39,044 nucleotides of DNA from Alphaproteobacteria bacterium (GTDB taxonomy: Bacteria; Pseudomonadota; Alphaproteobacteria; Rhodospirillales; Magnetovibrionaceae): contig JADGBG010000003.1 of assembly GCA_015231605.1 (NCBI GenBank), forward strand, positions 1-39,044. Direction: 5' to 3'. Positions 1 through 13,743 of this stretch are shown here, in pieces. A program made the position numbers and the translations under genes. The notes beneath the pieces were generated by a model, which was not told the DNA's origin, did no database searches, and saw only the letters and a program-made list of their open reading frames with translations. The stretch's first letter is position 1. Each line of letters begins with the position of its first letter.

Positions 1-197
1 CCCTTGGCGGCGACGGCGCCGCCCTTGGCGGCTGCGCCGGCGGCGGCCTTGGCTTTCGCGGCGGCGGCAGCCTTCGCGGCCTTCGCCTTGGCGGCGGCGG
101 CGGCTTTCTTGGCGTCGGCCATGCGCTCGAGGTTGTCGGCCATCATCTGAATTTCAGCGGCGCTTTTGCCCGCGACCAGTTCGTTCAAGGGAATCAT
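1..197 (-). CDS. Ala/Lys-rich low-complexity protein, N-terminal part (runs off the window)
   Basis: Reading left from an ATG at 197, the frame is open to the window edge (65 codons seen). A good ribosome site (GGAG, 7 nt spacing) precedes the start. Residues 1-29 look like ordinary protein (MIPLNELVAGKSAAEIQMMA and on). From about residue 30 it becomes almost pure Ala and Lys with some Gly, with AKAKAAKAAAAAKAKAAAG-like repeats. Such tails occur in histone H1-like DNA-binding proteins and in some polymer-granule proteins, but the folded N-terminus is not one I recognise. It lies 165 bp downstream of the kinase gene on the same strand, and the gap could hold its own promoter. Function unknown. 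The repetitive codons (GCC/AAG) are the reason it is easily missed by gene callers. Confidence 0.6.
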   Translation of the reverse strand, partial: MIPLNELVAGKSAAEIQMMADNLERMADAKKAAAAAKAKAAKAAAAAKAKAAAGAAAKGGAVAAK

Positions 198-362: not shown

Positions 363-1331
363 TCACCCGCCAAACAGCCCCAAAAGACCGCCGATTCCAG
401 CCGAGGTCGGTTCCGTGTCGGATTTGCGCAATTGCTTGAGCGCGCGGTCGATTCCCGGCACTTCGATGGTGCTGGACAGAACACTTTTGATCAGCCGGTT
501 GGTCATGTCGCGAATCAGGAAGTCCGGGCTCTGGCGCAAATGGTCGATCAGGGGCGACGCTTCCGGGTCCATGAAGTCGTCATGGGTCAGGATCAGGTTC
601 TCCCCGGTGAAATGCTGGGCGAACAGTTCGGGCGCCATCGTGATGGCGCGCAGCGACAGGGCGATCACCAGGATGGAGAAGTGATCCATCGTCGGGCCGT
701 AATGGCGCACGCCGCGGGCGTGGTGTTGGAAGTTGACGCCGCCCAGAAGCACGGACTTCAGGCCCTTGAGCGCCGGTACGTACATGGAATCGTAGTCGAT
801 CAGCTTCAGCACGCCCTTGGACGTCACGATGATGTTGTCGTGTTTGAGATCACCGTGCGCCGTTTTGCGCGCCAACATGTCCAACGCCATGATGGCGAAG
901 GCGCGGGTCAGCGCGGCCAGACCTTTTTGCTTGTTCTTGGCGGCCAGCATCTCCACCGCCGCCGCCAGGGTGTGGCCCTCGACCCAGGGCATCACCACCA
1001 CCGGATAGTCGCCTTCCGCCGCGATGGACGATTTGACGTAGATTTCATACGGGCGATACTCGACGTCGATGAAATAGCTGGCCTTGGACTTGCGGATGTG
1101 CTCGCCGAGCGCCGCGTGGCGGCGCTCCAGGTCCGGCAGGTCGCGGATGAAGCACTTGACCGCCATGGTGTGCTCTTGCGCACCGGCGGTGCGGAACACG
1201 GCGGCGAAGTTTCCGGCCATGAACACCGGTTCCCCGTTGTGGTCCAGATAGGGACGCAAATCCAGCGTCCTCAAACGGTTGTGGGCGTTGCGCATGGCGG
1301 ATTTGTAGTCGGTGATGATGGGAAAGGTCAT
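363..1331 (-). CDS. Protein kinase of a TerY-P-type triad
   Basis: 322-aa protein with a eukaryotic-type kinase fold. Visible motifs are a glycine-loop remnant GNFAAVF (about residues 40-46), the ATP lysine in AVK (K59), a catalytic loop HGDLKHDNIIV (159-169, HGD replacing HRD) and DYD (179-181) where DFG is usual. This variant set is typical of the kinases that accompany TerY and a PP2C phosphatase. I see no membrane segment. The C-terminus ends in a Gly/Leu-rich GIGGLLGLFGG tail rather than the zinc ribbon found in some relatives. Its ATG overlaps the stop of the phosphatase gene by 4 bp (ATGA), so the two are probably translationally coupled. Inference: it phosphorylates a partner, perhaps the vWA protein, in an unidentified stress or surface-linked response. 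The substrate cannot be read from sequence. Confidence 0.85.
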   Translation of the reverse strand: MTFPIITDYKSAMRNAHNRLRTLDLRPYLDHNGEPVFMAGNFAAVFRTAGAQEHTMAVKCFIRDLPDLERRHAALGEHIRKSKASYFIDVEYRPYEIYVKSSIAAEGDYPVVVMPWVEGHTLAAAVEMLAAKNKQKGLAALTRAFAIMALDMLARKTAHGDLKHDNIIVTSKGVLKLIDYDSMYVPALKGLKSVLLGGVNFQHHARGVRHYGPTMDHFSILVIALSLRAITMAPELFAQHFTGENLILTHDDFMDPEASPLIDHLRQSPDFLIRDMTNRLIKSVLSSTIEVPGIDRALKQLRKSDTEPTSAGIGGLLGLFGG

Positions 1332-2368
1332 GGCGCGGTCCTATCCGTTGGCTGCGGCGTGTCGTCCGGAGGTGTGGCGTCGGCGGCGGCTGGCGGGGGC
1401 TCAATGTGCGGCCACTCGACATCCACGTCAATCAGGATCAGCGTGGCGTCGTCGTTGGCCATCAAGCCTTGGGCGTGAATTGCGGCGAGCATGTGCGCGA
1501 AGGCGGCCTCGTCGTCGAGATTGGCGCGGACCGCGTCCAATTCGCGCACGAAATCCGTGGGCGGTTGGGCGGCGTGGGCGCGGAACGCGTCGTCCAGGCG
1601 GGGCGAGGGGGCGGATATCCCGGGGGCAACCGCGCCGGTATGGCGAAGATGGCGCAACCACAGGAACTGTCCGATCCCATCCGACGCCAGCACCACGGTG
1701 CAGCGTTCCGGCAGATCCAGGGATCCGGCGCGAAGTTGCCCGGCGTCCGGCAGGTCCTTCCAGTTGAGAAGATGCGGATCGCGGCCCATGTCGGCAAGGT
1801 TAAACGGAGCCGAAAACAATAGGTTAAGACCACTTTTGGGGGTTCGGTCGAAGATCAATAGCGGGCTATCTCCATAATTTAGCCAGCTTAACGAAATTTT
1901 AGTCTTTTTTCGGGTGATCCAGCAGGCGGTCAGAGTCGCACACGACCCCTCGCGGACGAACTTGCTGCGTTGGGAGGCGTTGGAATCCGGACGATTCTTG
2001 CAGCTTTGAGAAAAGTCGCTCCAGAATCCATCCATCCAGGCGTTCAAATCCTCATAGCCGGCTATCGGCGAATCGGGCAGGCGGTCCATCAGGCACTCGG
2101 CCCACGGTCCGCAATACAACCCCGTGGATCCCGCGCCGTCGGACACGGCCGCGACGATGCGTTTCGCGCCGACATCCAGTCGGAAACGGTCCTCGTTCTG
2201 TCGGGCGACGATCCCGGCGGCGGTTTCGAAGGTGTCGTTTTTCGGCTTGGGGGCGGTGCGCCCGCGCGCCGACCATGTGACGACCGGTTTGGGCGGCGCG
2301 AGCAGAACCGGCGCGGGCGACGGCGCCAGAAGCGGAAGATCCGGTTTGGGGGCGTCCGGCGAGGTCAG
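1328..2368 (-). CDS. PP2C-type Ser/Thr phosphatase of the TerY-P triad
   Basis: PP2C metal-dependent phosphatase of about 346 aa. After a Pro/Ala/Lys-rich start come the family motifs in order: NEDRF, AVSDGAGST, EGSCATLTA, NYGDSPLL, LASDGIGQF and NDDATLILI, which supply the metal-binding aspartates. The C-terminus is Pro/Asp/Thr-rich. The start is unclear: the frame stays open far upstream inside the vWA gene, but I see no in-frame ATG, GTG or TTG near the domain. The best signal is CTG at 2368, 6 nt after GGAGG and overlapping the vWA stop as CTGA, which mimics the usual ATGA coupling. The frame further upstream is a shadow of the vWA gene. It probably reverses phosphorylation by the adjacent kinase. 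Confidence 0.82.
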   Translation of the reverse strand: MTSPDAPKPDLPLLAPSPAPVLLAPPKPVVTWSARGRTAPKPKNDTFETAAGIVARQNEDRFRLDVGAKRIVAAVSDGAGSTGLYCGPWAECLMDRLPDSPIAGYEDLNAWMDGFWSDFSQSCKNRPDSNASQRSKFVREGSCATLTACWITRKKTKISLSWLNYGDSPLLIFDRTPKSGLNLLFSAPFNLADMGRDPHLLNWKDLPDAGQLRAGSLDLPERCTVVLASDGIGQFLWLRHLRHTGAVAPGISAPSPRLDDAFRAHAAQPPTDFVRELDAVRANLDDEAAFAHMLAAIHAQGLMANDDATLILIDVDVEWPHIEPPPAAADATPPDDTPQPTDRTAP

Positions 2369-3420
2369 CTTCGGCCTCCGTACCCGGGGCCGCCGGGACG
2401 GGATTGCGGCGGATAGGGCGGGACGATGCCGGACGGCACCGGCTTTTGCGGTGCGGGAGGATGCGCGGGGCGCGGCGCGGGTGCCGCCGGAGCCGCCGGA
2501 GCGGGTTGCGTCGCGGTCTGCATCATCGCCTGGCCGACCTGACCCGCGTTGGGGAACACGATGGCCTGGCGGGTGCCGATGTCCAACAACTTCACCAGCC
2601 CCACGGCGTCGGCGTTGAACGCCATGCCGCGCACGCTGGGCGTGGTTTCCAGGTCGCGGTCGAAGATTTCGCAGATCACAGCGCGGTGACGGTCGGACAT
2701 TTCCGAGGACATCTCGAACAACAGCTTGGCGTAGCGGTCGTCGGGCAGTTCCATCGGGCTCCACGGGAACACCACCGGTTCCTGGTCGCTGCCGGAAATG
2801 TGGCAGTTGATCAGCAGGACGTTGCCGTCGCTGGTCTTGAGGCTGGTGAGATGGCGCGCCGTCATCAACAGCTCTTCTTCCGTGTCGACGTCGTTGGCCA
2901 TGCCGTCGGTGATGTTGATGATGATCGGCGGGAAGGAATTGGGGTTGCGGTAGATCCATTCCTGAAGCGTGGCGTAGGCCAGCTTGAACGCCGCGTTCAT
3001 GGGCGTGCTTTCGATGGCGGTGGGGGTGATCCAGCGCGACACGGTGACGGTCTCGCTGACCGGTTGGCCGCGCACCATGGTGGTGATTTCCTGTTCGTCG
3101 ACGCGGGCGTTGGCGGCGACTTCGGAAATCGGCACCAGGGACCGCCCCGCCAGACCGTCTTCCCAGCAAAAGCGCGGGCGGTGGGTTTCGCCGTAGCCGA
3201 TCACGCCGATGTCGAAATAGTCGCGCACGCCTTCGTCGCGCATGCAGCGGTTCACCAGCTCTTCCAGCGTGCTGTTGAGCGCCTCGGCCACCAGCACGGC
3301 GCGGCTCACCGGGTTGCCGTTTTCGTCGACGCCGAAGTCCTTGTTCATGGACCGGGACTGGTCGACCAAGAACAAAAACGCGCCCGGACATTCCCGGCTG
3401 ATTTCCTGTGAATAGGCCAT
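2365..3420 (-). CDS. TerY-like von Willebrand factor A domain protein
   Basis: 351-aa protein opening with a vWA domain. LVDQSRSM is the MIDAS DxSxS motif near residue 20, and NITDGMAND supplies the later MIDAS acidic position. The C-terminal 60 or so residues are Pro/Ala/Gly-rich (PAPAAPAAPAPRP and on), probably a flexible tail. It has no signal peptide. The chosen ATG at 3420 follows an AGGGGGG ribosome site at 5-6 nt spacing. It is the first gene of the vWA-phosphatase-kinase operon (4-bp overlaps throughout). TerY proteins are metal-dependent scaffold proteins in predicted tellurite/chemical-stress systems, and the triad is a recognised unit. No TerB/C/D/Z gene lies in this window, so the triad appears on its own here. 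Partners are unknown. Confidence 0.85.
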   Translation of the reverse strand: MAYSQEISRECPGAFLFLVDQSRSMNKDFGVDENGNPVSRAVLVAEALNSTLEELVNRCMRDEGVRDYFDIGVIGYGETHRPRFCWEDGLAGRSLVPISEVAANARVDEQEITTMVRGQPVSETVTVSRWITPTAIESTPMNAAFKLAYATLQEWIYRNPNSFPPIIINITDGMANDVDTEEELLMTARHLTSLKTSDGNVLLINCHISGSDQEPVVFPWSPMELPDDRYAKLLFEMSSEMSDRHRAVICEIFDRDLETTPSVRGMAFNADAVGLVKLLDIGTRQAIVFPNAGQVGQAMMQTATQPAPAAPAAPAPRPAHPPAPQKPVPSGIVPPYPPQSRPGGPGYGGRS

Positions 3421-3622: not shown

Positions 3623-5614
3623 ATGACGGACCGCCCCATTCAGCCTTGGCATTGGAACACGCTTTATCTCCTGTTGGCGTGCTCGACCATCATCATGACG
3701 CTTTCGGCGGGGCTACAGCCGTTGTTCCTCAACGAGGTGCTGGGCGTCACGGGCCCGCGCGTCGGCGTCATCAATGCCAGCGTCCAGACCGCCGCGGAGG
3801 TGGTGTCGCTGGGGCTGATCGCGTTTCTCGGCTACTACTCCGACCGGGTGGGGCGTGGCCCCATCGTCTACATCGGGTTCCTGGTGGCGGCCGCTGGCGC
3901 GTTCCTGGCGATTCTGAGCCCCTGGTTGGGCGCGATGTTGGGCGTGGGCGCGCTCAGCTTCTATTTTCTCACGCGCATTCTGGTGTTTCTGGGCCTGGGC
4001 GCGGTATGGCCGCAGCTCACCGTGCTGGCCGGGGACTACACCACCTATGAAACCCGTCCGGGCCAATTCGCCAAGGTTCTGTTCATGATGACCTTCGGCG
4101 GTTCGGTGATCTACGCCGTTCTGATGCAGATCCCGGAATACGGCGGGCTTTACGTGGTGATGGCGCTGACGGTGCTGATCGCGCTGGGCGGTGCGTGGCT
4201 GGCGCGCGGCCACCATCTGCCGGATGTCGCGCCGCACCTGGGGCAGCGGACGTATCCGTTCGAACAGTTGCGCAAGCTGACGGCCAACGAGCCGCGCATG
4301 CAGTTGGCGTTCGTGTCGGCGTTCTTTTCGCGCTCGGACATGGTGTTCGTCGCCATGTTCCTGATGCTGTGGTTCCTCAATTACGGCAAGTTCGCCGGGT
4401 TCAGCCGCGAGGAAGCCGTGGCCGTCGCGGGCGGGGTCCTGGGCGTTCTGGGCATCGTGATCATGGTGGCCTTGCCGGCGTGGGGGATGTTCATCCGTCA
4501 ACGCGGCCGCGTGTTGGGTATCGCCGTGGGCATGGCGATTTCCGCCGCCGGGTTCCTCGGCATCGGCCTGATGGGCACGCCGTTCACGCCCTGGATTCTG
4601 GTTCCCATCGCGCTGATCGGCGTGGGGCAGGCGGGGTGTTTGATTTCGCCCCAGGTCATGGCCATGGACCACACGCCCAAGAACCTGCGCGGCACCGTGA
4701 TGGGCGCGTTCAGCGTTTTGGGCGGGCTGGGCATCATTTTCTTCGTGCAAAGCGGCGGCATGCTGTTCGACATCGTCGGTCCGCACGCGCCGTTCGTGCT
4801 GATCGGCTTGGTCAACGTCATGGTGATGACCTACGCCTTCAGCATGATGCCTTACGACACCGGCGCGGAAACCCCGGCGAAAAAGCCCAAGATCGGGTTC
4901 AAGCCGGTGGTGTTCAGCGTGTGCCTGTTGCCCATGCTGGTGCCCTTGATGTGGCTGGTGGACAGCGGCGGGGCCAACCATCACGGCGCGTTCGGCGGCC
5001 TGCCGCTGGGCTACTGGAACCGCTACACCGGCGTGTGGGCCTTGAACTTCCTGATCATTTCACTGGCGCTGCGGCCGATGCGCGAAATGTCCAAGGTGGC
5101 GCAGTTGGCGCGCTACAACCGCATGATCGGCCTGTTCGCCTTCTTCTACGCCGTGCTGCACGTGTTGACCTATCTTTGGCTGGAAATCGGCGGGCACAGT
5201 TTGTCGCACATGTGGAGCGACTTCTGGCTGCGCTGGTTCATTCCCATCGGCATCATCGCCTTCGTCCTGCTGACGGTTCTGGCGATCACGTCGCACAAGT
5301 ACTGGTCCAAGCGCCTGGGCGGCAAGCAATGGAAGTTCCTGCAGCGTTCCGTCTACGCCGTCAACGTGCTGGTGCTGCTGCACTTCATCGTCGCCGCCGA
5401 CATGGCGGATTCCGGCATGGCCAAGGCGCTGGTGTATACGGCGATCGTGTTCGCGCTGTTCACGTACCGGGTGCGTCAGTACATGGCGACCCACGACATG
5501 CTGCGCCAGGGGCTCGACCCCGAAGACGCCAAGAAGGCCGCCAAGCTGGCCAAATCCAAGGGGCATGGCGCGCCGAAAACGGCAAAACCCGTCAAAGCCA
5601 AGGCCGAAGCCTAG
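3623..5614 (+). CDS. mamZ: MamZ-type magnetosome protein: MFS transporter fused to ferric-reductase-like heme domain
   Basis: 663-aa polytopic membrane protein. Residues 1 to about 415 form a 12-helix MFS transporter, with a cytoplasmic loop containing YSDRVGRGP. From about 430 a second set of helices resembles the YedZ/MsrQ ferric-reductase transmembrane family: GYWNRYTGVWALNF, then histidines at 513 (YAVLHVLTY), 558 (TSHKYW) and 587 (VLLHFI), the likely heme ligands. The tail is Lys/Ala-rich. This fusion and length are characteristic of MamZ, which with MamX is implicated in iron redox control during magnetite formation in Magnetospirillum. A magnetochrome gene converges on its 3' end, supporting the call. 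GAGG precedes the ATG. It could be another MFS-reductase fusion, but with the neighbour MamZ is by far the best reading. Confidence 0.9.
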   Translation: MTDRPIQPWHWNTLYLLLACSTIIMTLSAGLQPLFLNEVLGVTGPRVGVINASVQTAAEVVSLGLIAFLGYYSDRVGRGPIVYIGFLVAAAGAFLAILSPWLGAMLGVGALSFYFLTRILVFLGLGAVWPQLTVLAGDYTTYETRPGQFAKVLFMMTFGGSVIYAVLMQIPEYGGLYVVMALTVLIALGGAWLARGHHLPDVAPHLGQRTYPFEQLRKLTANEPRMQLAFVSAFFSRSDMVFVAMFLMLWFLNYGKFAGFSREEAVAVAGGVLGVLGIVIMVALPAWGMFIRQRGRVLGIAVGMAISAAGFLGIGLMGTPFTPWILVPIALIGVGQAGCLISPQVMAMDHTPKNLRGTVMGAFSVLGGLGIIFFVQSGGMLFDIVGPHAPFVLIGLVNVMVMTYAFSMMPYDTGAETPAKKPKIGFKPVVFSVCLLPMLVPLMWLVDSGGANHHGAFGGLPLGYWNRYTGVWALNFLIISLALRPMREMSKVAQLARYNRMIGLFAFFYAVLHVLTYLWLEIGGHSLSHMWSDFWLRWFIPIGIIAFVLLTVLAITSHKYWSKRLGGKQWKFLQRSVYAVNVLVLLHFIVAADMADSGMAKALVYTAIVFALFTYRVRQYMATHDMLRQGLDPEDAKKAAKLAKSKGHGAPKTAKPVKAKAEA

Positions 5615-5656
5615 GCTCGGCCTGATCCGTTCCGCTTCCTGAAACGAGGGTTTGTA

Positions 5657-6058
5657 TTACGGCTGCGCCGCGGCCGCCGGTGATCCCTGGACCGCCGGCG
5701 TGATGGGCTGGCCGTTGCGTGTGATCACGTGGCACGCTTCGCACTTCATCGCCTTGCCCCGGCCGTCGGCGTGGATGTCGGGCGCGGCAATGTCGATGGC
5801 CGGAGCGGAACGGGACTGGCCCGCGCCGGCTTGCGTGACGTCGACCCCGGCCGGATTGCTGCCGTGGGTGATCAGGTGGCACGAGCCGCAGGCGACGTTG
5901 TCGCGTTCGTCACGATGTGGCGACATGATTCCCGGCGGAATGGGCGGGGCGTCGTGAAAGCCTTCTTCCTCCCAAATGACGTCGGCGAACATGGCGAGGG
6001 CCGCCAGTCCGATGACCGTCAAAACGCCACCGCCGATGACCAAATGTTCCGGCTTCAT
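5657..6058 (-). CDS. Membrane-anchored double magnetochrome (c-type cytochrome) protein, MamX/MamT-like
   Basis: 133-aa protein with one N-terminal membrane helix (about residues 7-27, HLVIGGGVLTVIGLAALAMF) and a periplasm/magnetosome-lumen part with two heme c sites, CGSCH (57-61) and CEACH (106-110). Each is preceded by the magnetochrome pattern: APPIPPGIMSPHRDER before the first, AAPDIHADGR before the second. Magnetochrome domains are known from MamE, MamP, MamT and MamX, where they handle electrons for mixed-valence iron. By linkage to mamZ it is probably the MamX counterpart, but at 133 aa it is much shorter than Magnetospirillum MamX as I recall it and nearer MamT in size, so no symbol is given. 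The ATG at 6058 has AGGAG 9 nt upstream; a longer frame to 6172 lacks support. It converges on mamZ with a 42-bp gap and no visible terminator. Confidence 0.85.
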   Translation of the reverse strand: MKPEHLVIGGGVLTVIGLAALAMFADVIWEEEGFHDAPPIPPGIMSPHRDERDNVACGSCHLITHGSNPAGVDVTQAGAGQSRSAPAIDIAAPDIHADGRGKAMKCEACHVITRNGQPITPAVQGSPAAAAQP

Positions 6059-6272
6059 GGGGTGGGGCTCCTGTCGGGATGGGGAGAAAACGTTGCACGC
6101 ATGACGGATTTTGGAACTCTTCTTTCCTTTCCGCGTCCCGAAATCTTTATACCGCTTCGCTTTCAATCGCAAGTTCTTCGCAAGGGATGGTACGAAAAAT
6201 GGCTATCTTCGGGGCAGGGAACCGTGTAAAAATGCGAAGCATTATCAATCCGTACAATCCGGGGAACGCGTC

Positions 6273-7358
6273 ATGGACATCGCAGTGTTCGTTGAAAATC
6301 TCATCCATCTCAGTCTGGACGCCGCGCCGTGGCTGTTGGTGGGGCTGTTGCTCGCGGGGTTGATCAAGGCCTGGGCTCCGGAACAGGGCATGGCGCGCCT
6401 GATGGGCGGGCGCGGGCTGGGTTCGGTGCTGAACGGCGCGCTGGTTGGGGCGCCGCTGCCGATCTGTTCGTGCGGCGTGTTGCCGGCCGCTATCGGGTTG
6501 CGGCGCGCCGGGGCGTCGCGCGAAGCCACCACGTCGTTTCTCGTGGCGACACCGGAAACCGGGGTGGACTCGGTGGCCGTTTCCTACGCCATGCTGGGGC
6601 CGTTCATGGCCGTGGCGCGGCCCGTGGCGGCCATCGCCAGCGCCGTGGTCACGGGGCTGATGATGCGCTTTCTTCCGCCCGAACCCGCGGTCCAAACGCA
6701 ACCGTCCGTCCAGGGCGGAGGGTCATGTTGCACGTCATCGTGCTGTGGCGGCGCGAAGCCCGCGCCCGCGCCCGCGAAGCCGTCCGCCTGGACGCGCACC
6801 TGGGGTGGCGTTCATTACGCGCTGTTCGATATTTTCGACGATCTGGCGGTTTGGTTGATGGTGGGATTGGTGTTGGCGGCCGCGACCATGACGTGGGTCC
6901 CGCCCCAGACCATGGCGGAATACGGCGGCGGCCTGTTCGCCATGGTCATGATGGTGATCATCGGCATTCCCATGTACATCTGCGCCACCGCGTCCACGCC
7001 GGTCGCGGCGGGTATGCTGATGGCCGGGGTGTCGCCGGGCGCGGCCATGGTGTTCATGCTGGCCGGTCCCGCCACCAACATCGCCACGCTGGGGGTGGTG
7101 CGCAAGGAAATGGGCGGGCGCGCCGTGGCCCTCTATCTGACCGGCATCATTTCCAGTTCTCTTGTCGCGGGGCTCGTCACGGACGCCGTGGCGTCGCGCC
7201 TGGGCGTCGACATGACGGTGCAGATGGCTGCGGCCGGCGAGGTGGTTCCCGACATCGTCGCCCAGGCGTCCGCCGTGTTCCTGGCGGCGTTGCTGGTCCG
7301 CACGCTGCTGAAGGGGGTGGGACTGGGCCGTGTCTTCGCGCGGGAAAACGCGTTATAA
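6273..7358 (+). CDS. SO_0444-like permease (predicted Cu/Zn efflux) with Cys-rich loop
   Basis: 361-aa integral membrane protein of the UPF0718/DUF318 permease type. The N-terminal half carries PICSCGVLPAAIGLRRAGAS followed by a TPETGVDS segment, which is the family signature. The C-terminal half repeats the fold (STPVAAGMLMAGVSPGAA, GPATNIATLG). The two halves are joined by a hydrophilic loop with a metal-binding look, GGGSCCTSSCCGG, then a Pro/Ala linker. The Cys-rich loop is typical of the SO_0444 group, annotated elsewhere as copper/zinc efflux. The ATG at 6273 has GGGGAA upstream; longer frames starting at TTG 6111 look artificial. Placed between a magnetochrome gene and EcsC, it may serve metal homeostasis around the magnetosome functions, but that is only context. 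Confidence 0.8.
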   Translation: MDIAVFVENLIHLSLDAAPWLLVGLLLAGLIKAWAPEQGMARLMGGRGLGSVLNGALVGAPLPICSCGVLPAAIGLRRAGASREATTSFLVATPETGVDSVAVSYAMLGPFMAVARPVAAIASAVVTGLMMRFLPPEPAVQTQPSVQGGGSCCTSSCCGGAKPAPAPAKPSAWTRTWGGVHYALFDIFDDLAVWLMVGLVLAAATMTWVPPQTMAEYGGGLFAMVMMVIIGIPMYICATASTPVAAGMLMAGVSPGAAMVFMLAGPATNIATLGVVRKEMGGRAVALYLTGIISSSLVAGLVTDAVASRLGVDMTVQMAAAGEVVPDIVAQASAVFLAALLVRTLLKGVGLGRVFARENAL

Positions 7359-8396: not shown

Positions 8397-8759
8397 TCAC
8401 GGATTCTGCGGCGTATCCCCTTGTTCTGGATTTTCGGCTTCCGGCTCTTTCTTTTTAAGGCTGGAATCCCTATGAGCGAGATACTTCGTAAGCTCACTTC
8501 CCATAATTTGGTAGTTGTCCTTGACCTTTCTGGCTTTCAGCTTGCCCTTATGGATCAGGCGGATGATCCCCTCACGGTCCGTACCAAGATAGCGCGCGGC
8601 CTCGGTGCTGTTATAAGCCCGGGAGCGACGAATTTCGCGGGGGTAGAAAATTTCGCGAATTTTAAAAAAAGCGAACAGCAGGAGGGCGGCGTCTCTAGTC
8701 GCTTTGAGAAGCTTTTCAACAACGGTAAGCACACCGACCATCTGTGAGCTGTTGGCCAT
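8397..8759 (-). CDS. MamR-like small protein: hydrophobic N-terminal helix plus excisionase-type HTH (copy 1)
   Basis: 120 aa. The N-terminus has a hydrophobic or amphipathic helix (VVEKLLKATRDAALLLFAFF). The middle is an excisionase/HTH_17 domain: YNSTEAARYLGTDREGIIRL, then KGKLKARKVKDNYQI, the usual helix-turn-helix and wing. The tail is Lys/Glu-rich. Magnetosome protein MamR is described as a small protein of this excisionase type, and all three copies here fit that description. Start chosen at ATG 8759; TTG at 8777 in the same frame has no ribosome site, and the site for 8759 is itself weak. This copy is visibly more AT-rich than its neighbours (AAA, GAA, TTT codons common), suggesting separate arrival. 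It could be a DNA-binding regulator or, given the hydrophobic helix, a membrane-associated adaptor. Confidence 0.72.
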   Translation of the reverse strand: MANSSQMVGVLTVVEKLLKATRDAALLLFAFFKIREIFYPREIRRSRAYNSTEAARYLGTDREGIIRLIHKGKLKARKVKDNYQIMGSELTKYLAHRDSSLKKKEPEAENPEQGDTPQNP

Positions 8760-8889: not shown

Positions 8890-9210
8890 TTAGGTCCGGT
8901 TTACGTCGGCGAGGCCAGCGTCTTGTAGGCTCTTGGGGTCGTGGCCGAGCGCCTTCATGATGTCGATGCCCATGATGCGGTAGTAGTCGTTCACTTTCAT
9001 CGCGGGCAGGTCGCCCTGGACGATCATGCGCACCACGTCGATGCGCTTTACGCCGAAAAAGCGCGCAGCTTTCGTCGTGGAATACTGCCGGTTGGGTTGA
9101 ATCACGTCGGGATAGAAGAATTCCCGCACGCGCAGGGCGCCGAACACCAGAAAGCCCGCGTCGCGCATCAGCGACACCAGGATCCGGACCAGTTCCAGGA
9201 TCTTGGTCAT
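8890..9210 (-). CDS. MamR-like excisionase-type HTH protein (copy 2)
   Basis: 106 aa. A hydrophobic N-terminal helix (ILELVRILVSLMRDAGFLVF) leads into the HTH domain: YSTTKAARFFGVKRIDVVRM, then VQGDLPAMKVNDYYRIMGID. It is closely related to the relic at 8223-8354 and shares KRIDVVR with copy 3. The ATG at 9210 overlaps the stop of copy 3 by 4 bp (ATGA), so it is translated by coupling. No zinc or catalytic motif is present. Domain type and size match MamR; direct homology should be tested by alignment. A role in regulation of, or structural attachment to, magnetosome functions is inference from neighbours (CDF transporter upstream, feoAB divergent). Confidence 0.78.
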   Translation of the reverse strand: MTKILELVRILVSLMRDAGFLVFGALRVREFFYPDVIQPNRQYSTTKAARFFGVKRIDVVRMIVQGDLPAMKVNDYYRIMGIDIMKALGHDPKSLQDAGLADVNRT

Positions 9211-9584
9211 GACGCGGTTCCCCGGGCTTTTCCGTCGGCATCGATGGCCGCTTCGAGGGCCGTGTCGGTCTTGCCGGTTTTGGCGGTTTTGCGCGCGGCG
9301 GAGTAATCCAGAACGCTCTGTCCCGGAATACGGTAGAAATCGCCCACTTTCTTGGCGGGGATTTCCCCGTCGCGCAGCGCGCGGACCACGTCGATGCGCT
9401 TCATCTTGAGAAGATGAGAGACTTCCTTGGAGGTGTAGATCTTGTTGGCGTTGATTTTCTTTTCGCGCAGGCTGTTGAGCAGCACGATCCCGCCCAGGAT
9501 ATCCGCCAGTTCCGCCAGCAGCGTGACGAGCGAGCGCATGGTCGGCATGGCGCTGCGTGCGACGAAGGTTTGCCAGGACATCAT
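9207..9584 (-). CDS. MamR-like excisionase-type HTH protein (copy 3)
   Basis: 125 aa. N-terminal hydrophobic stretch LVTLLAELADILGGIVLLN, then the HTH core YTSKEVSHLLKMKRIDVVRA and the wing RDGEIPAKKVGDFYRIPGQS. The C-terminus is Lys/Ala/Thr-rich (ARKTAKTGKTDTALEAA). ATG at 9584, or the next codon at 9581, follows a G-rich ribosome site (GAGGGGGG). It is 63 bp downstream of the CDF gene on the same strand and overlaps copy 2, so CDF, copy 3 and copy 2 look like one transcript. Of the copies this is the most divergent in its first half, but IPAKKVGDFYRIPGQ is the classic excisionase-fold ending. Possible roles are as for the other copies. Confidence 0.78.
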   Translation of the reverse strand: MMSWQTFVARSAMPTMRSLVTLLAELADILGGIVLLNSLREKKINANKIYTSKEVSHLLKMKRIDVVRALRDGEIPAKKVGDFYRIPGQSVLDYSAARKTAKTGKTDTALEAAIDADGKARGTAS

Positions 9585-9647: not shown

Positions 9648-10901
9648 TTAAGCGTTATTTTCCGGGAACACGGAGGTGGAATTTTCCATGTAATTCTTCA
9701 TCAGGCTCGCGACTTCGGTCGCCTCGGTGACGCGCACGTCGATGCCGAAACGGTGAAACATCAAGCCCGGCCCCTTGTCGTGCAGATCTTCGCGCGAACA
9801 GACGCTGTCCACCCCCTGGTCGATCAGGGTCGTGGCGAGATTGATGCCCCGGTGCTTTTCGCTTCGCGCATGGGGGTTTTCCACGATTTTTCGGGAAAGA
9901 ACTTTGTTTTCCAGACGGTTGTACTCGATGATGGAGAAATGACCGGTCTTGCCGAATTCCTCGCTGATCACCTCCCCCGTGGCGTCGGTGGGCACGAACA
10001 GCTTGAGGGTCGCGGGGAATTCGTGGCGGTAGTGGACGAACACCGTGTCGATGGCCTCATCGTGATCCTTGAGCGCCTTTTCGATGGTGTCGGCGGTGGC
10101 GTTGGCCTGATCCAGGGAAAAGGCCTTGATGTCGATTTCCACGTCGACGAAGCGGAAACTGCCCGCGTCGCGGCCGCGGATGGACTGGACGGCCAGCACG
10201 CCGGGTTGCCGGGCGACGATCTTGCGCATGGCGTCCAGGCGGTCCTTGGGCAATGAGATGTCGAGCAACACCTTGACGTTGTCCCACAGGATTTCCAGGC
10301 CGATCTTGGTGATGATCATCGCCACGATCAGCGCCGCCCACCGGTCCAGGTTGACGCCGAAGAACGCGCCCACCAGACCCGCCAGCACCACCATGGACGA
10401 ATAGACGTCGGACACCGTGTGATTGCCGCTGGCCTCGATCCCCGGCGAGTTCATGAGGCGCCCGGAGCGAGCCTCGAACGAGCCCCAGAAATAGTCCAGC
10501 GCCATGCCCAGGATCACGGCGGTGACGCCGATGGGGATGTTTTCCGGCAGCGGGGCCTCGCCCGACAGGAAAATCATCAGGATTTCATACGCGCCGTAGA
10601 GAATCGCGAAGCCGATGGCCAACGCCAGCAGGTTTTCGATCTTGTAGAAACCGTACGGAAATCGCTTGTACTTGTGCGGGGCCAGACGGACGCCGATCCA
10701 CACGATGAAGGAACCGGCCACGTCGGCGGCGGAATGGATGGCGTCGGCCACCAGGGCCGTGCTGCCGGTGAGCCACGCCGCCGTGATCTTGATGAACGTT
10801 CCCACCAGGGATTCCAGGGCGGAAAACAGCACCACCCATTTGCGGCGGAATTCTTTTTGTTCCGGGGTCAGGGGATTGGGGGCGGGGGAGGTCATTTCCA
10901 T
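9648..10901 (-). CDS. CDF metal transporter with C-terminal NifX-like domain
   Basis: 417 aa. Residues 20-210 form the six-helix cation diffusion facilitator channel. The TM2 metal site is H56/D60 (VADAIHSAAD) and the TM5 site H161/D165 (GNHTVSDVYSS), an HD-HD set more usual in zinc-type CDFs than the Asp-rich FieF iron site. Residues 212-295 are the cytoplasmic CDF dimer domain. Residues 298-403 look like a dinitrogenase iron-molybdenum cofactor (NifX/NafY-like) domain: LKLFVPTD...GEVISEEFGKTGHFSIIE, later GVDSVCSREDLHDKGPGLM. CDF proteins MamB and MamM import iron into magnetosomes, but this one is not assigned to either. Its neighbours (feoAB, HTH proteins) suggest iron or other divalent metal traffic. 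ATG at 10901 has GAGG just upstream; ATG 10895 is possible. Its start lies inside the 43-aa peptide gene. Confidence 0.85.
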   Translation of the reverse strand: MEMTSPAPNPLTPEQKEFRRKWVVLFSALESLVGTFIKITAAWLTGSTALVADAIHSAADVAGSFIVWIGVRLAPHKYKRFPYGFYKIENLLALAIGFAILYGAYEILMIFLSGEAPLPENIPIGVTAVILGMALDYFWGSFEARSGRLMNSPGIEASGNHTVSDVYSSMVVLAGLVGAFFGVNLDRWAALIVAMIITKIGLEILWDNVKVLLDISLPKDRLDAMRKIVARQPGVLAVQSIRGRDAGSFRFVDVEIDIKAFSLDQANATADTIEKALKDHDEAIDTVFVHYRHEFPATLKLFVPTDATGEVISEEFGKTGHFSIIEYNRLENKVLSRKIVENPHARSEKHRGINLATTLIDQGVDSVCSREDLHDKGPGLMFHRFGIDVRVTEATEVASLMKNYMENSTSVFPENNA

Positions 10902-11242: not shown

Positions 11243-11276
11243 TATGAGGGGTTTCCAACAACAAAAAGGTCAAGCC

Positions 11277-11519
11277 ATGTCGAACATGAACACATTGACT
11301 CTCGCCGATCTCAAACCCGGACAGGAAGGCGTCGTGCAGATGATCAACGGCACCGCCGACCTCAAACGGCGCCTGTCGGCCTTGGGTTTGGTCAACGGCG
11401 TCAAGGTCACCTTGGGCCATACCGCGCCGCTGGGCGACCCGCGCGCCTACGAAGTTCTCGACTACACGCTGAGCCTGCGCAACGAAGAGGCTCGTAAAAT
11501 CGTCCTGCAAGGGGCGTAA
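11277..11519 (+). CDS. feoA: FeoA, ferrous iron transport accessory protein
   Basis: 80-aa cytoplasmic SH3-like protein. TLADLKPGQEGVVQMI opens the barrel, and RRLSALGLVNGVKVTLGHTAPLGDP and YEVLDYTLSLRNEEARKI are typical FeoA segments. It supports FeoB function, probably by direct contact. ATG at 11277 is chosen over GTG/ATG-like codons upstream because AAGGT precedes it and the family begins here; an in-frame ATG at 11244 would add 11 unrelated residues. It is first in the feoA-feoB operon behind a Fur-like site. A GC-rich hairpin separates it from feoB. Confidence 0.92.
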   Translation: MSNMNTLTLADLKPGQEGVVQMINGTADLKRRLSALGLVNGVKVTLGHTAPLGDPRAYEVLDYTLSLRNEEARKIVLQGA

Positions 11520-11610: not shown

Positions 11611-13743
11611 GTGACGAACAAAACGATTACGGTTGCCCTGGTTGGCAACCCGAACGCCGGCAAGACGACGCTGTCCAACGCGTTGACCGGCGCCAAGGAC
11701 AGCGTCGGCAATTACCCGCGCGTGACCGTGTCCAAGCGCGCCCGCGAAATCCAGCACAAGGGCTGGACCATCAAGCTGGTCGATCTGCCCGGCATCTATT
11801 CGCTGACGTCGCAGTCCCCGGAAGAACGGATCGGCCGCGACTTCATCCAGGACGAACGGCCCGACATCGTGCTCAACGTGCTGGACGCCGGCAGTCTGGA
11901 CCGCAGCCTGTTTTTGACCACGCAGTTGATCGAAATGGGGCGTCCGCGCATCTACGCGCTGAACATGGTCGATGAAATGCGCAAGAAGGGCTATTCCATC
12001 GACACCGCGTCCCTGTCGTCCATGCTGGCCGGCCCGGTGATCGAGACCGTCGCCACCAAGAAACAGGGCGTCACGGAGCTTCTTGACGCGGTCGTCGCGA
12101 TTGCCGACAGCGGACAGTTGGATGACAAGCCCTTGCAGGTGCCGTACGACGGCCACCTGGAAGACGCCATCGACCGCGTGCAGAAGACCGTCGCGGAACT
12201 GCATCCCGGCGAATTCGAATCCGTGCAAAGCCGCTGGATGGCCATCAAGCTTCTGGAAGGCGACGATGAAATGCTGCGCCGCGAAGGCGAGCACGGACTT
12301 CTGATCGAAATGGTGCGGCGCGAACGGTTCGATCTGTCGCACACGCACAGCGACGAAGTGGAAATCATGTTCGCCGACGCGCGGTACGGCTTCATCCATG
12401 GCTTGCTGTCGGAAGTGCGCACCCGGTCCCTGGATCCGGAAAGGCGTCTCAGCCAGACCCGCCTGTTGGACGGCGTTCTCCTGCACCGCACCCTTGGCCT
12501 GCCGCTGTTTCTGTTCTTCATGTGGCTGATGTTCGAAACCACGTTCACCGTGGGCGCGTATCCGATGGACTGGATCGACGCGGGCGTCGGCGTGTTCAGT
12601 GAAACCGTCGCGGGGATCCTGCCCGACGGCATGGTCAAGGACCTGATCGTCGACGGCATCATCGCCGGCGTGGGGGGGACCATCATCTTCCTCCCCAACA
12701 TCGTGATCTTGTTCTTCTTTCTCGCGTTTTTCAGCGAAAGCGGCTATCTGGCGCGCTCCGCGTTCCTGTTGGACCGGGTGATGCACACCTTTGGTCTGCA
12801 CGGCAAGGCGTTCATCCCGCTGATCATGGGTTTCGGCTGCAATGTCCCGGCGATCATGGCGACGCGCACCATCGAAAGCGAAAAGGCCCGTCTGATCGCG
12901 ATCCTGGTCAACCCGTTCATGTGCTGTTCGGCGCGCCTGCCGGTGTTCATCCTGTTCGCGGGCGCGTTCTTCGCCCAGTGGGCGGGAACGATCGTATTTA
13001 TGATCTACATGTTGTCGATCGTGATCGCGCTGGGCTCCGCCATATTTTTGTCGAAGTACGTGGTGCGCGGCGGCGACGAGGCATTCGTCATGGAACTGCC
13101 GCCGTACCGCATGCCGTCGCTCTCGGCCGTGCTCTATCACATGTGGGACAAGGCCAAGGACTTCCTCAAGAAGGTCGCCGGCGTGATTTTGGTGGGCTCC
13201 ACCGTCCTGTGGTTCATGCAGGCGTTTCCCAAGGAAGTGGCCTGGAGCGTCGATTACGACACCCAGTTCGCGGCCCTGGAGGCGCAGGCCGAAAGCGCGG
13301 AACGCGACGCAGCCATCGCCAAACTGGCCAATGAGCAAGGGCGCGAGCACCTGGAAAAGAGCTACCTTGGCACGGTCGCGCACACGGTGGCCCCGATCTT
13401 CGCCCCCTTGGGCTTTGACTGGCGCGACACCACGGCCATTCTGACCGGTCTGGTGGCCAAGGAAGTGGTGGTGGCGAGCTACGCCGTCATCTACGCCCAG
13501 GGCGCGGAGGAGACGGAGGAGTCCAATAGCCTGCGCGAGGCTCTGGCCGCCAACATGAACCCGGTGGTGGCGCTGGCCTTCATGGTGTTCATCCTGATCT
13601 ACGCGCCGTGCGTCGCGACCATCGCGGTGATCCGCCGCGAGGCCGGCGGCTGGCACTGGGTCGGCTTCTCGGTGGCGTTCTCCATGTCCCTGGCGTGGCT
13701 TCTGGCGTTCGGCATCACCACCATCGGCGGAGCGATCGTGTGA
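11611..13743 (+). CDS. feoB: FeoB ferrous iron transporter
   Basis: 710-aa FeoB. The N-terminal G domain shows G1 GNPNAGKTT (residues 12-20), a switch region NYPRVTVSK, G3 DLPG and G4 NMVD. A helical GDI-like region follows, then the membrane part with two Gate repeats (GCNVPAIMATRTIESEKARL and MCCSARLPVFILFAGAF) and about 8-10 helices. It imports Fe2+ across the inner membrane. The start is GTG at 11611 with a purine-rich ribosome site. Its stop overlaps the next small gene (TGATG). Magnetotactic bacteria often carry an feoAB copy in or near the magnetosome island, and the proximity here to mamZ and magnetochrome genes suggests the same. Whether this is the only feoB of the genome cannot be told. 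Confidence 0.96.
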   Translation: MTNKTITVALVGNPNAGKTTLSNALTGAKDSVGNYPRVTVSKRAREIQHKGWTIKLVDLPGIYSLTSQSPEERIGRDFIQDERPDIVLNVLDAGSLDRSLFLTTQLIEMGRPRIYALNMVDEMRKKGYSIDTASLSSMLAGPVIETVATKKQGVTELLDAVVAIADSGQLDDKPLQVPYDGHLEDAIDRVQKTVAELHPGEFESVQSRWMAIKLLEGDDEMLRREGEHGLLIEMVRRERFDLSHTHSDEVEIMFADARYGFIHGLLSEVRTRSLDPERRLSQTRLLDGVLLHRTLGLPLFLFFMWLMFETTFTVGAYPMDWIDAGVGVFSETVAGILPDGMVKDLIVDGIIAGVGGTIIFLPNIVILFFFLAFFSESGYLARSAFLLDRVMHTFGLHGKAFIPLIMGFGCNVPAIMATRTIESEKARLIAILVNPFMCCSARLPVFILFAGAFFAQWAGTIVFMIYMLSIVIALGSAIFLSKYVVRGGDEAFVMELPPYRMPSLSAVLYHMWDKAKDFLKKVAGVILVGSTVLWFMQAFPKEVAWSVDYDTQFAALEAQAESAERDAAIAKLANEQGREHLEKSYLGTVAHTVAPIFAPLGFDWRDTTAILTGLVAKEVVVASYAVIYAQGAEETEESNSLREALAANMNPVVALAFMVFILIYAPCVATIAVIRREAGGWHWVGFSVAFSMSLAWLLAFGITTIGGAIV

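Follow-up and report, generated by a model that had tools for sequence, protein, structure and literature searches.

The window is a stretch of 39,044 bp from a draft genome of 3.18 Mb, 99% complete, where it makes up bases 1-39044 of the 78,842-bp contig C193. It carries mamZ on the forward strand and a short mamX on the reverse strand; the two converge, separated by 42 bp (Table 1). Both reading frames had been delimited exactly to the base in an earlier sequence-only reading of this DNA. On one side of the pair, a gene for a von Willebrand A-type (VWA) protein is divergent from mamZ and belongs to a triad with a kinase-like and a PP2C-like gene; the PP2C-like gene sits between the other two and is 41–46% identical to its relatives. 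On the other side lies an efflux-type permease, which is also the next gene in Magnetovibrio blakemorei MV-1 and in its congener G101. The neighbours common to the window and MV-1 are thus the triad, mamX, mamZ and the permease. The triad also adjoins mamX/mamZ, in one orientation or another, in loci of Magnetospirillaceae, Magnetovibrionaceae and the Terasakiella type. We found no mention of it in the literature examined, and it may have a regulatory role within the magnetosome cluster.

Table 1. Positions of genes, domains and sites around the mamX/mamZ pair in the window
Feature	Position	Strand	Basis or remark
N-terminal part of mms6-like gene	1..197	-	Cut by contig end; C-terminal part at end of contig C64 (L018)
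Ser/Thr-kinase-like gene, triad member	363..1331	-	Pkinase E 4e-6, just under cut-off; 49–53% identity to relatives
PP2C-phosphatase-like gene, triad member	1328..2341	-	5′ limit approximate; PP2C name by sequence judgement
VWA protein gene, triad member	2365..3420	-	Name by sequence judgement; 59–77% identity in relatives
mamZ	3623..5614	+	Pfam; NCBIfam NF040998 738.7 bits, cut-off 650 (equivalog)
Gln574 codon CAG in mamZ	5342..5344	+	First position of HX12H pair with His587
Intergenic gap	5615..5656	.	42 bp, convergent; without remnant of MamX C-terminal domain
Short-form mamX	5657..6058	-	N-terminal TM anchor and two magnetochrome domains, no C-terminal OB-fold domain
Magnetochrome domain 2 (CEACH)	5717..5803	-	PF18509 26.5 bits, by itself under cut-off
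Magnetochrome domain 1 (CGSCH)	5861..5947	-	PF18509 34.4 bits, over cut-off
Ribosome-binding-site-like AGGAG of short mamX	6068..6072	-	Sequence
SO_0444-family Cu/Zn efflux-type permease	6273..7358	+	NF033936 414 bits, cut-off 300; 65% identity in relatives

The mamZ product is 663 aa long. Residues 14–374 match MFS_1 (E 9e-26) and residues 469–584 match Ferric_reduct (E 1e-12) in Pfam, the C-terminal domain being of the ferric-reductase/YedZ type (MsrQ-like). This fusion had been read as MamZ, and the profile search bore the reading out, with a score above the equivalog cut-off. The protein is 57–58% identical to MamZ of its Magnetovibrio relatives and groups with MV-1 and G101 in the MamZ tree (support 100). 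It is also fast-evolving, with a branch of 0.81 and 25 departures from near-invariant columns.

Position 574 is Gln in the window MamZ versus His in all 45 of the 45 other distinct MamZ proteins that have a residue there. His is also found at the equivalent position of the genome's own MsrQ. Gln574 sits 13 residues before His587, and an HX12H motif at 574/587 would be expected to ligate haem; HX12/14H is the haem motif of the haem-binding helices in the ferric-reductase/NOX (FRD/NOX) superfamily (PMC5676040). His513 and His587 are kept, and both align to MsrQ histidines. The lost His points to one specific haem. Either the window MamZ would hold one haem fewer, or Gln574, a matter of one base in one draft genome, would be an error or a compensated change. 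Together, the fast evolution of MamZ and the loss of a conserved His make reduced function possible.

The gene facing mamZ encodes 133 aa, with an ATG start and AGGAG nine bases upstream, and its product has a single hydrophobic N-terminal helix. Two PF18509 magnetochrome domains were found (whole-protein E 2.5e-13). Searches of 14 control genomes with PF18509 found nothing, so the two matches are not due to chance. Both CXXCH motifs noticed earlier are present, in the contexts PHRDERD..CGSCH and IHADGRG..CEACH; the PHRD pattern that was said to precede them is found at the first motif and is missing at the second. On the NCBIfam MamX model the protein scored 60.6 bits over model positions 9–111 of 264, below the equivalog cut-off of 400 because its C-terminal half is missing; the MV-1 mamX product scores 104 against the same cut-off of 400. 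In an alignment with MamX proteins the window cytochrome includes the TM anchor, the W-E/D...AP-I..G linker and the two magnetochromes but nothing further C-terminal. At the sequence level, this protein is MamX reduced to its N-terminal half.

Its best BLASTP matches were MamX of MV-1, G101, a Magnetospira QH-2-like genome (G025) and M. moscoviense BB-1, with E-values from 1e-23 (MV-1) to 4e-18. The match to the window genome's own MamE had an E-value of 2e-10, and MamX of relatives was preferred over the genome's own MamE, MamP and MamT. The cytochrome and MamZ both have their nearest relatives in the mamX/mamZ pair of MV-1, and thus within magnetotactic bacteria. A structure model of the short form, of moderate confidence, weakly matched MamP (E 0.065). 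A search for a full-length mamX elsewhere in the window genome found none; the match to the MamX C-terminal domain on contig C148 is MamS. The cytochrome had no match in a viral contig scan or in a plasmid search, and MamZ gave only partial plasmid matches (at most 29% of the query, mostly in the MsrQ-like half). When a class-wide sample of 385 genomes was searched with the cytochrome protein, the window genome was the sole match; this would be expected where the sample contained few magnetotactic genomes and the divergence of MamX defeats a search with a single sequence.

The C-terminal part that is absent from the window MamX is likewise absent from MamX of MV-1 and G101, and all three short forms end cleanly with no relic of the lost domain. 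In the BB-1 protein this domain (residues 161–250) models as a beta-barrel with a mean pLDDT per ten residues of 71–93, and its nearest solved structures in Foldseek are OB-fold proteins (best E 2e-3, probability about 1). The lost domain thus models as an OB fold, the fold predicted earlier for the MamX C-terminus and MamS (PMC3905215). The sole remaining copy of the OB domain in the window genome is in MamS.

To place the pair among its relatives we compared 68 loci with a complete mamZ, encoding 47 distinct MamZ proteins, from Magnetospirillaceae, other Rhodospirillales and Magnetococcales; the set is a sample and not a census. Full-length mamX (250–324 aa) lies immediately upstream of mamZ and collinear with it at 43 of the 47 distinct loci. 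At one locus, that of G025, full-length mamX is divergent. MV-1 (110 aa) and G101 (107 aa) have a short mamX that is collinear and ends 10 nt before mamZ. The window alone among the 47 has the convergent order, which agrees with the earlier description of the pair as rearranged. The term minimal, also used for it, fits the short cytochrome but does not single out the window genome: among 18 Magnetovibrionaceae genomes three carry mamZ, and all three, including both others with the 107–110-aa form, have a short mamX. Within the sample the short form is limited to this family. It maps to one change on the MamZ tree, where the three short-form genomes make up one clade (support 100), so one loss of the C-terminal domain suffices and is inferred; the minimal form is thus a trait of the family. 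The MV-1 gene mv1g00028 has already been counted as MamX (PMC3847676). As the only candidate, the 110-aa reading frame is presumably this gene; no statement that MV-1 MamX is short was found in the literature examined, the published alignment being in a supplement. A deviation of another kind was seen in MamX at L068:5125-6081 (-), identical to L110:7011-7967, which has three CXXCH motifs, one above the usual number.

The sequence-only reading had also proposed a magnetotactic host, and mamAB genes were indeed found in the genome. MamH, I, K, M, O, P, A, Q, B and T scored over their cut-offs, MamS reached 198.4 of 200 bits, and a MamR-like gene is also present. Contig C148 carries mamK, M, O, P, A, Q, R-like, B, S and T; contig C64 carries the end of the mms6-like gene, mamH, mamI and most of mamE; a MamY-like gene lies on contig C165. 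Judged from these genes, the host is presumably a magnetosome-forming member of the Magnetovibrionaceae and predicted to be magnetotactic. On the simplest reading there is one compact magnetosome cluster, running feoB-feoA, a cation diffusion facilitator (CDF), three mamR-like genes, an EcsC-like gene, the permease, short mamX, mamZ, VWA-PP2C-kinase, mms6, mamH-I-E and mamK to mamT. A search for an exact overlap joining the left end of the window to contig C64 found none; the join, and with it the link to the mamAB operon, rests on the Ala/Lys-rich Mms6-like protein, which is split between the contigs within an Ala/Lys repeat.

Several further features of this cluster were observed. MamE is split over C64 and C148, at L018:1-2304 (-) and L017:2-640 (+), with three magnetochrome domains on one contig and two on the other; MamE may have five. 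Three tandem MamR-like genes at 8397-8759, 8890-9210 and 9207-9584 (-) score 64–77 bits against a cut-off of 100 and adjoin a cation-efflux transporter. They are extra to the normal mamR in mamAB on C148; a move of mamR from mamAB into the window was rejected, since mamR is at its usual place there. The transporter at 9648-10901 (-) is a CDF with a C-terminal nitrogenase-cofactor-type (Nitro_FeMo-Co) domain, an extension found at none of the other mamZ loci; its nearest magnetosome models are MamB and MamM, far below cut-off. A feoA-like gene (by sequence judgement) at 11244-11519 (+) and feoB at 11611-13743 (+, 617 bits) possibly encode a magnetosome-linked ferrous iron transporter.

Taken as a whole, we consider it very probable that the locus encodes MamX and MamZ, with the OB fold lost, MamX in its short form, the mamX gene inverted and the haems of the two proteins working as a redox pair. 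Of the other readings we weighed, the strongest sees the truncation of mamX, the lost His574 and the fast evolution of MamZ as signs of a non-essential redox module that is degenerating. The lost OB domain, the H574Q change and the long MamZ branch would all fit such decay, but neither reading frame is interrupted, both CXXCH motifs persist together with a ribosome-binding site, and His513 and His587 remain. Moreover, three genomes from two genera have stably kept the short form, among them that of the cultured, magnetosome-forming MV-1. We therefore regard decay as improbable.

Considerably less likely still is that the cytochrome is a free magnetochrome protein, MamT-like or derived from MamE, that came to lie beside mamZ while the true mamX was lost. 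MamT is the known protein with a TM segment and two magnetochromes and no other domain (PMC3971196), and MamE domains also match the cytochrome. However, the window genome has its own MamT, to which the cytochrome gave a BLASTP E-value of 3.9, against 1e-23 to MV-1 MamX, and the NCBIfam MamT model gave no match; MamT identity was rejected on these two results. The TM anchor and linker are also common to the cytochrome and full-length MamX, and two relatives have the same gene exactly in the mamX slot before mamZ.

The gene order itself, read from one draft assembly of 213 contigs, can be compared with that of Magnetospirillum-type loci, in which kinase-PP2C-VWA lie on one strand, followed by mamX and mamZ on the other. 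As in Magnetospirillum, the window triad faces away from mamZ, and it is turned round in MV-1 and G101; because of this distribution the window triad order is probably the older one. In the ancestor, then, kinase-PP2C-VWA and mamX-mamZ would have pointed away from each other, the arrangement of Magnetospirillum. In the window lineage the single mamX gene would have been inverted and re-placed downstream of mamZ, so that co-transcription of the two would no longer be possible. No flanking repeats stand out around the inverted mamX (best inverted 15–20 nt at 80–93%). An assembly or binning artefact hiding a collinear mamX-mamZ order, as a 213-contig draft and the collinear MV-1 and G101 might suggest, is likewise very unlikely, since both mamX junctions are internal to the 78.8-kb contig, no long inverted repeat flanks mamX, the permease comes next as in relatives, and the triad is oriented as in Magnetospirillum and not as in MV-1. 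The permease position and the Magnetospirillum-like triad orientation argue for a coherent rearrangement history of the region, and the order in the window indicates that mamX and mamZ need not be co-transcribed.

Returning to MamX and MamZ as the products of this locus, the identity of the two genes and their domain content were shown, and electron transfer between the members of the pair is predicted from the genes. MamZ would lie in the magnetosome membrane, where its MFS half is probably a transporter of iron or of a counter-ion and its ferric-reductase-like half would pass electrons via b-type haem towards the lumen side. Short MamX, anchored by one helix, is predicted from its CXXCH motifs to present two c-type haems in the lumen, which would accept or donate electrons and so adjust the ratio of Fe(III) to Fe(II) for magnetite. 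The di-haem part alone would be the working core, and the OB domain would be dispensable, or else MamS would supply it in trans. In Magnetospirillum gryphiswaldense MSR-1, mamX mutants form haematite-like flakes alongside magnetite, and a MamX deprived of its magnetochrome domains fails to complement (reviewed in PMC3971196). Because short MamX retains exactly the part known to be needed, the pair most likely works as it would in MSR-1, with electrons passing between the MamZ membrane haem(s) and the two lumenal MamX haems. A more specific version, which we hold to be possible but doubtful, is that a MamZ with one b-type haem (His513/His587, His574 lost) feeds a two-haem MamX stub made from a separate transcript, the OB domain thus being unneeded for redox.

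A family with a naturally OB-less MamX amounts to a ready-made domain-deletion experiment. The short form bears on the role of the MamX C-terminal domain and on the direction of electrons through MamX/MamZ, questions raised in PMC3971196. The MamX/MamZ system is already known, and the short form is present in the cultured MV-1; new are the limitation of the short form to Magnetovibrionaceae (in our sample), the convergent order and the lost His in MamZ.

Among known systems, the mamX-mamZ locus of MV-1 (contig NZ_MCGG01000056) resembles the window in having a short double-magnetochrome protein beside mamZ and the same triad and permease, with a MamZ 58–59% identical to that of the window, but its mamX is collinear upstream (10 nt gap), its triad runs in the same direction, and His occupies the 574 position. 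The mamXY operon of MSR-1 (mamY, mamX, mamZ, ftsZ-like) and its relatives share with the window a MamX with a TM segment and two magnetochromes and a MamZ with the MFS and YedZ-like fusion. There, in contrast, MamX is about 270 aa long with a C-terminal OB-fold domain and the operon is collinear and includes mamY; MamZ of this type is about 38% identical to the window MamZ. At the Magnetospira QH-2-like locus mamX and mamZ are likewise not collinear, but their order is divergent and the 320-aa MamX is full-length, with its C-terminal domain. MamT and MamP have the TM anchor and tandem magnetochrome domains of short MamX, yet belong to another sequence family, and each is present separately in the window genome. 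Finally, the C-terminal half of MamZ resembles MsrQ/YedZ ferric-reductase-like haem proteins, and MsrQ histidines align with its His513 and His587; MsrQ is free-standing whereas MamZ adds the MFS half, and the window MamZ, unlike MsrQ/YedZ, is without the His of the K-x-LHR-x-x-Y motif.
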